Shown: piece after piece, positions 2,104 to 4,265 of the stretch | Layout: the number at the start of each line of letters is the position of its first letter | Numbering within the stretch: the first letter of the stretch is position 1 | Source of the DNA: Mycolicibacterium sp. MU0053 | Lineage (GTDB): Bacteria; Actinomycetota; Actinomycetes; Mycobacteriales; Mycobacteriaceae | DNA length: 64,000 nt | Direction: 5' to 3' | Assembly (NCBI RefSeq): GCF_963378095.1 | Contig: NZ_OY726397.1 | Coordinates: forward strand, 124,001-188,000 | The notes under the pieces: model-generated | Seen by the model: only the letters and a program-made list of their open reading frames with translations | The model's database searches: none | What the model was told of the DNA's origin: nothing | Made by a program: the position numbers and the translations under genes

Positions 2104-4265
2104 GTGACATCCCCTCCGGCCCGCTCGATGCAGCGGAGTCCCGGGCGGTCAGCCTGCTGTCCCGGGTCATCCTGCCCCGACCCGGCGAACCCCTCGACGT
2201 CCGCAAGCTCTACATCGAGGAATCGAGCACCAACGCCAAGCGCGCGCACGCCCCCACCCGCACCTGCCTGGAGATCGGCGAGGGTTCCGAGGTGTCGTTC
2301 GCGACGTATTTCAACGCGTTCCCGGCCAGCTACTGGCGCCGCTGGTCGACGCTGGAGTCGGTGGTGCTGCGGGTCGAATTGTCCGGCTCGGCCCGGGTCG
2401 ACGTCTACCGCACCAAGGCCACCGGTGCCCGGATCACCGTGGGCGGGGCGCCGGTGACCAGCCCCGGTCCGTCCACCCCGGCTGGGTCCGATGTCGGCGG
2501 GCCTCGTGCTCGCGGAACTACACCGCTCGCCGAACCCGCTGGGTCCGATGTCGGCGGGCCTCGTGCTCGCGGAACTACACCGCTCGCCGAACCCGCTGGG
2601 TCCGATGTCGGCGGGCCTCGTGCTCGCGGAACTACACCGCTCGCCGAACCCGCTGGGTCCGATGTCGGCGGGCCTCGTGCTCGCGGAACTACACCGCTCG
2701 CCGAACCCGCCTGGACCGAGTTCGAGATCGGTCTCGATCCGTTCGAGGACGGCGGCTGGATCTGGTTCGACATCACCACCGACACCGACGTCACGGTGCA
2801 CAGCGCGGGCTGGTACGCCCCGGTGCCCGCGCCCGGGCGGGCGAACATCGCCGTGGGCATCCCCACCTTCAACCGGCCCGCGGACTGCGTCAACGCCCTG
2901 GCGGCGCTGACGTCGGATCCGCTGGTCGACGAGGCGATCGGCGCGGTGATCGTGTCCGATCAGGGCAACAAGAAGGCCGTCGACCACCCGGACTTCGCCG
3001 ACGCCGCGGCCCCGCTGCAGGGCCGGCTCACCATCCACAACCAGCCCAACCTCGGCGGTTCCGGCGGTTACAGCCGGGTGATGTACGAGGCGCTGAAGAA
3101 CACCGACTGTGAGCAGATCCTGTTCATGGACGACGACATCCGCATCGAGCCCGACTCGATCCTGCGGGCCCTGGCGCTCAACCGGTTCGCCAAGTCGCCG
3201 ACCCTGGTCGGCGGCCAGATGCTCAACCTGCAGGAGCCCTCGCACCTGCATGTGATGGGCGAGGTGGTGGACCGCTCGAACTTCATGTGGACCAACGCGC
3301 CGTTCACCGACTACGACCACGACTTCGCGAAGTTCCCGTTGGCCGCCGAGGCCGACCGCAGCAAGCTGCTGCACCGCCGCATCGACGTGGACTACAACGG
3401 CTGGTGGATGTGCATGATCCCGCGGGTGGTGGCCGAGGAACTGGGCCAGCCGTTGCCGCTGTTCATCAAGTGGGACGACGCCGAGTACGGGTTGCGCGCG
3501 GCGGCCCGCGGCTACGGCACCGTGACGATGCCCGGCACCGCGATTTGGCACATGGCGTGGAGCGACAAGGACGACGCCATCGACTGGCAGGCCTACTTCC
3601 ATCTGCGCAACCGGCTGGTGGTCTCGGCGCTGCATTGGGACGGCGACGCCAAGGGCCTGGTCAAAAGCTCGTTGAAGGCGACGCTGAAACACCTTCTGTG
3701 CCTTGAGTATTCGACGGTGGCGATCCAGAATCGGGCCATCGAGGACTTCCTGGCCGGCCCCGAGCACATCTTCTCCATCCTGGAGTCGGCGCTGCCGGAG
3801 GTGCACCGGATGCGCAAGCAGTTCCCGGACGCGGTGTCGCTGCCCGGGGCCACGTCGCTGCCGGCGCCGTCGGGCCGGCGCGCGGTGCACAAGCCGCCGG
3901 TGTCGCTGCCCGCGATCGGGGTGCGCCTGGCCCGCGGCGTCATGCATCAACTCAAGAAGGAAGACCCGGCGCATCACGTGCGGCCCGAGTTGAACGTGGC
4001 CACCCAGGATGCGCGCTGGTTCCTGCTGTGCCGGGTCGACGGGGTCACCGTCACCACCGCCGACGGGCGCGGCGTGGTCTACCGGCAGCGGGACCGGGCC
4101 AAGATGTTCGAACTGCTGCGCGCCTCACTGCGCCAGCACGCCCGCCTGGCCCGCAAGTACAACACCATGCGTCGGGTCTACCGCGAGGCCGCGCCGACGT
4201 TGACCAGCAAGCAGAAGTGGGAGTCGGTACTGCTGGAATCCAGCCCGGAAACCAGCAATGCCTGA
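2100..4265 (+). CDS. glfT2: Galactofuranosyltransferase GlfT2 with an internal 76-residue tandem-repeat insertion
   Basis: Polymerises the galactan of arabinogalactan, adding alternating beta-1,5 and beta-1,6 galactofuranose from UDP-Galf on the cytoplasmic membrane face. The 721-residue product has an N-terminal beta-rich domain, a GT-A domain with metal-binding DDD at residues 344-346, a WDDAEYG motif that would carry the catalytic aspartate, an IWHMAW histidine motif and a helical C-terminal part. M. tuberculosis GlfT2 is about 637 residues. Nearly all of the excess is four identical 19-residue repeats (unit [19 protein letters not shown]) at residues 128-203 in the N-terminal domain. Catalytic motifs and flanking sequence look intact, so the enzyme is probably functional with an extended loop. 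It overlaps glf by 4 bp and the next gene by 8 bp. Confidence 0.96.
2481..2708. repeat. Perfect 57-bp tandem repeat, four copies, inside glfT2
   Basis: Four back-to-back 57-bp units start at 2481, 2538, 2595 and 2652 and appear identical base for base. Each begins GCTGGGTCCGATGTCGG and ends CGCTCGCCGAACCC. As 57 is a multiple of three, the glfT2 frame is kept and each unit adds 19 residues. Identity between copies points to recent expansion. By unit length and its position within an operon it resembles mycobacterial interspersed minisatellites (MIRU/VNTR class), but I could not compare it to known units. Copy number probably varies between strains (inference). Confidence 0.97.

Follow-up and report, generated by a model that had tools for sequence, protein, structure and literature searches.

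What is the 57-bp tandem array in the galactan polymerase gene glfT2 of Mycolicibacterium sp. MU0053, and how did it get there? The array lies in a 64,000-nt stretch of contig NZ_OY726397.1 (positions 124,001 to 188,000 of the forward strand), hereafter the window; its features are listed in Table 1. We hold with good confidence that it was amplified from one copy of a short, dispersed hairpin element, which is or once was mobile within the genus.

Table 1. Features of the glfT2 array, in window coordinates
Feature	Position	Strand	Basis or remark
glfT2 ORF, 721 aa	2100..4265	+	ATG start overlaps the stop of the upstream ORF; Pfam; alignment with 4fix
Array, four identical 57-bp units, residues 128-203	2481..2708	+	TRF
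Unit 1	2481..2537	+	
Unit 2	2538..2594	+	
Unit 3	2595..2651	+	
Unit 4	2652..2708	+	
Conserved 21-bp core CTCGCGGAACTACACCGCTCG of unit 1, inner hairpin	2509..2529	+	genome 126509 = window 2509
Starts of the 21-bp core, units 2-4	2566, 2623, 2680	+	
Upstream target copy CTGGGTCC	2482..2489	+	shared by the four units and G262
Downstream target copy CCTGGACC	2710..2717	+	same as at the ACS4331 empty site

TRF describes the segment 2481–2710 as a repeat of period 57 with 4.0 copies, 100% matches and no indels. Each unit, consisting of an approximately 49-bp element and an 8-bp target repeat, is translated into one 19-residue peptide, which GlfT2 contains four times. The original prediction of four identical in-frame units thus agrees with both TRF and translation, and its remark that the unit can be read in several frames holds as well, five of six frames being open and one yielding the 19-residue peptide given there. 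It had also described the catalytic motifs as intact. Three Pfam domains (Glft2_N, Glyco_tranf_2_3, GlfT2_domain3) are present, and a comparison of 35 homologues shows no variation at D344–D346 and many other transferase-domain residues; hence, judging from sequence conservation, the enzyme looks intact. The solved GlfT2 structure 4fix aligns on either side of the insert, stopping at query residue 121 (chain residue 130) and resuming at query residue 202 (chain residue 134), and the structure predicted for the loop, with a mean pLDDT of 50.4, was set aside.

The window contains several other repeats. The ORF immediately upstream of glfT2 is presumably glf, and the ORF upstream of the latter, which we take to be Erp, has PGLTT/PGLTS-type repeats (238–334, minus strand). 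The 7-bp unit CCACTCG is found in 4.3 copies at 43622–43673, followed by a 14-bp unit occurring twice, and a run of G+C-rich 9- and 18-bp repeats lies in a long open frame at 61372–63942, perhaps encoding a glycine-rich protein.

Four units could be a local feature of glfT2 or one occurrence of a dispersed repeat. A BLAST search with the array hits the 5.45-Mb genome at 11 places, one of them glfT2, and 10 loci together hold 18 exact matches to the 21-bp core; when three mismatches or fewer are allowed, the core gives 22 hits, compared to one for the reversed pattern. As 230 bp match at 100% and the genome has related copies at ten further places, the array is not a chance repeat. Four of the 10 loci are intergenic, directly following a stop codon or a tRNA gene. 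Within the genus, the core with up to two mismatches is found in 17 of 396 genomes, with 26 hits in G386, 20 in G000, 19 in G394, 18 in G368, and one to four in the remaining carriers. A covariance model built from 71 copies extends the family to 20 of these 396 genomes, its copy numbers being lower bounds since few candidates were scored per genome. Sampling the order more widely (298 genomes, 76 genera) gives three matches, all from the host genus. The unit, which had been proposed for a search against mycobacterial genomes, is therefore dispersed, and the array is a member of an interspersed, apparently mobile, hairpin family. Carriage by phages, plasmids or viruses was rejected, as blastn yields no match to the element in phages and plasmids, and the exact 19-mer, which variants would escape, is absent from viral contigs.

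Arrays of two to five units also occur at other loci and in other genomes. This bears on a possible assembly error, in which the count of four would overstate a real but smaller array: perfect repeats are easily miscounted, and none of the 120 database proteins listed has a four-unit form, but the genome is assembled as one contig and comparable arrays exist elsewhere, which makes such an error very unlikely.

For nine loci, the flanks were searched in the relatives G012, G262, and G166. In nuoF, dapF, and at the 3′ end of a gene for an acyltransferase (presumably PatA), all three relatives are shorter by exactly 57 bp, while the intergenic loci align less cleanly and the tRNA-Lys locus was not placed in two relatives. 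In nuoF, GCGGTTTGG flanks a 48-bp element on both sides; one base is ambiguous, and a repeat of 8 bp with an element of 49 bp fits equally well. Hence one nuoF insertion, a 48–49-bp element plus an 8–9-bp direct target repeat, amounts to 19 codons. Such a clean target repeat is an exception among the copies. Out of 50 single-copy loci, 45 were counted (L226, L137, L138, L163, and L204 were omitted), and a direct repeat scoring at least 7 at distance 57 is seen in 17 of these, some of the repeats including element-like sequence. At offsets –30 to –25 the identity at distance 57 reaches 62–73% in the same 45 copies; at other distances isolated columns reach 69–71%, never in runs. The targets resemble CCGGNCGG, that is, the element's own 3′ arm.

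At glfT2 itself, several states are preserved. Mycobacterium sp. ACS4331 has an empty site (STPAWTEFE), G262 has one unit identical to those of the window, and G012 has one unit with five codon differences from the G262 and G000 units, four of them synonymous. The in-frame expansion that had been predicted is thus visible as one unit in two relatives and four in MU0053. The highest number in the 120 database proteins listed is one unit, seen in P0001 and P0002; in the fetched loci, 68 of 70 distinct GlfT2 loops lack the unit, and we rejected a fixed GlfT2 domain, the outcome against which the prediction was to be checked. Natural GlfT2 forms with zero, one, and four units offer a direct test of the effect of the insert on the galactan polymerase.

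The downstream target copy CCTGGACC matches the upstream copy CTGGGTCC in five of eight bases, and position –1 is G at glfT2 and C at nine other loci of the genome. Because all four units share the diverged upstream copy and an arm subtype unlike the other copies of the genome, they are not separate new insertions, and we infer that they arose by duplication of the old copy.

A different tandem repeat occupies the same loop in P0026, the GlfT2 of another mycobacterium (four GSDVGASASV-like units), and P0101 has a shorter form of it; judging by these two proteins, the loop may tolerate or attract repeats. That the loop is repeat-prone, and that the units of MU0053 are tandem and identical, would also be expected if slippage of glfT2 sequence had produced a local minisatellite of non-mobile origin. 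The same core at nine other loci and the one-unit state in two relatives, with an empty site in a third, contradict it, and we regard this explanation as extremely improbable: it is refuted for the origin of the unit by the dispersed copies and survives solely for the expansion step. The earlier description as a glfT2 minisatellite accordingly stands for the tandem in-frame growth, the array being primarily an insertion of a family present elsewhere.

Many copies lie in protein-coding genes. We selected 28 insert-bearing ORFs by codon-position GC, ORFs with a weak coding signal being left unscanned, and 26 of them have a Pfam match, in one case under its cut-off; two have none. The copy is situated within or between the matched stretches in DAP epimerase, NuoF, CobN, PEP carboxylase, NhaA, GH77, acyltransferase 3 (in two genomes), peptidase S58, acyl-CoA thioesterase, and the Rv2179c-like and DUF5642 proteins. 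It is near the C-terminal end in lipid A-type acyltransferase, CbiX, GDSL-like, signal peptidase II, AftD, FMO-like, AMP-binding, isochorismatase, asparaginase, and GtrA-like proteins, and adjacent to the matched domain or on its border in ABC, IMS, DUF2470, and MFS proteins. Of 15 Pfam-supported sense events, 14 are read in the RGTTPL frame, compared to 56% expected from the target phase (p 0.002), the expectation being derived from 29 ORFs of the window; with the two ORFs lacking Pfam matches, the count is 15 of 17 (p 0.005). In these counts, the G262 and G012 copies of glfT2 were not recounted, and each of two pairs (cobN and acyltransferase) entered as a single event. Weaker trends are the GERCSSAS frame in 9 of 11 antisense copies (p 0.09) and array spacing in multiples of three, seen in nine of ten coding arrays vs. 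nine of 16 others (Fisher p 0.10). The acyltransferase pair comprises arrays in the same gene of G394 (L195) and G386 (L211), one with a spacing of 68 and the other of 57, and the frame changes inside the insert of L195. The cobN pair (L177 in G394 and L193 in G386) is a two-unit array at the same place with different target-side letters.

Such frame preference, together with the four synonymous changes out of five between the G012 unit and those of G262 and G000, could mean that the unit has been kept since its peptide is useful to GlfT2, e.g., for length control or partner binding. We find this unlikely, as the same peptide is found in unrelated proteins and most GlfT2 loops do without it; moreover, five differences are few, and the bias may reflect merely the removal of harmful frames.

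The hairpin comprises an inner stem GCGG/CCGC with a 7-base loop and an outer stem of 7 bp. The locus set contains 76 loci, and the alignment (A1) has 71 rows, omitting L226, L137, and L138, as well as L144 and L163, which belong to the same glfT2 event. Paired states account for 94.5% of 781 cells, compared to 82.1% in shuffles that retain the relatedness among copies and 32–48% in slid versions; the cells contain 92 two-sided changes and four one-sided ones, and 43 are unpaired. At one inner pair, A-T replaces G-C in eight of 71 copies (seven from G386, one from G175). The arms covary almost without G-U steps, and this near-absence of G-U states argues against slow drift at the RNA level.

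The strong covariation, every measure of which exceeds all or nearly all of these shuffles, is also what a structured RNA or a regulatory site would produce, selected as RNA and spread by some unspecified route. The ratio of four one-sided to 92 two-sided changes, the occurrence of both orientations relative to genes, and the lack of an Rfam family over the element in the five loci searched all speak against it, and we consider it highly doubtful. An attC-like site was rejected by eye, using the known attC motifs.

Returning to the mobile hairpin, we consider how its arms come to match. In the MU0053 genome, the default base at position –12 is C, with departures in glfT2, dapF, the second copy of L123, and the first copy of L135, each of which pairs with the target-side base at position 30. 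Nine copies of this genome keep C at –12, unpaired to the target base, so correction against the target is not general. We read the –12/30 pairing as occasional correction of this kind, for which quasi-palindrome correction would provide a mechanism.

On inspection, the element has no terminal inverted repeats; its stem begins internal to the 5′ end and, on the 3′ side, includes bases of the target. Two copies, L137 and L138, are missing the 5′ arm but retain the 3′ end, and L138 (C1:4324551 of the MU0053 genome) supplies the opening codons of a gene, MKLADQHRSSNRTVL.., whose start is 27 bp longer than in G262 and also differs in length from G012; we take this gene to be acetate kinase. Going by their sequences, such 5′-truncated, 3′-retaining copies suggest copying anchored at the 3′ end. 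Two resident mobilizers were rejected: the Y1 transposase PF01797 is missing from five of six high-copy carriers, and the reverse transcriptase PF00078 is found in none of the six (one of them 81% complete), with six of 21 genomes positive overall. Past or other enzymes may nevertheless have acted on the element.

The history of the locus would then begin in a common ancestor with a single insertion into a loop of the GlfT2 N-terminal domain that tolerates it, followed in the MU0053 lineage by tandem duplication of the unit via slippage or unequal recombination. With a length of 57 bp and open frames, insertions would be tolerated in proteins, GlfT2 being little affected, and imperfect hairpin arms would be corrected against the target sequence. 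A bolder proposal, which we put forward only tentatively and consider rather unlikely, is a new class of tiny mobile hairpin. Its own 3′ arm would match a CCGGNCGG-like target and copying would proceed from that arm (by template switching or target priming) without a dedicated transposase, the other arm being rewritten according to the target. It would seed proteins, including essential ones, with ready-made flexible 19-residue peptides that grow into 57-bp VNTRs; intragenic VNTRs of this unit length, that of leuA among them, may have originated in this way.

Among known repeats, the glfT2 unit may resemble MIRU. MITEs and REP elements are small non-coding mobile hairpin repeats, some of them with target repeats. 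Unlike a MITE, the hairpin element ends without terminal inverted repeats, and compared to MITE target-site duplication, its target repeat is clean in nuoF, while 17 of 45 single copies score at least 7 in the target-repeat test. It differs from REP elements in that just one of six high-copy carriers has PF01797, and from target-primed SINE-like retroelements in that none of the six, including the one 81% complete, has PF00078. In a search of literature text covering few subscription journals, no description of this hairpin family was among the matches listed, and neither the 21-bp core nor RGTTPL was found.

Closer by description are the Rickettsia palindromic elements, which a review describes as short, palindromic, about 150 bp long, present in many copies, and inserted in-frame in unrelated proteins with a recurring peptide (PMC10969869). 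The hairpin family is likewise palindromic, interspersed, with many copies per genome, and found in-frame in protein genes, where the same peptide recurs (sense frame in 14 of 15 events), but its element is 48–49 bp plus the target repeat rather than the roughly 150 bp of that review, the host phylum is different, and tandem arrays are common. Copies in GlfT2, DapF, NuoF, CobN, and PEP carboxylase make protein invasion by short repeats testable beyond Rickettsia.

Two 57-bp repeats of Mycobacterium tuberculosis are also comparable by description. The repeat upstream of dop in strain Erdman is a tandem promoter repeat of variable copy number (PMC12817950), similar by description in its tandem 57-bp unit and different in its promoter location. 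VNTR4155 of leuA has 2–21 in-frame 57-bp units of 19 residues each, its length being 57n plus an extra 9 bp; removal of two units is tolerated and 14 copies alter kinetics (PMC2704214). At the leuA site, no such repeat is present in the seven genomes examined, and at the level of the peptide, leuA (VTIASPAQPGEAGRHASDP) differs from the glfT2 unit. Still, both are in-frame 57-bp units in an enzyme, with a target repeat of 8–9 bp in one case and the extra 9 bp in the other, and an insertion that together with its target repeat makes a multiple of three is a candidate origin for in-frame 57-bp repeats of mycobacterial enzymes.
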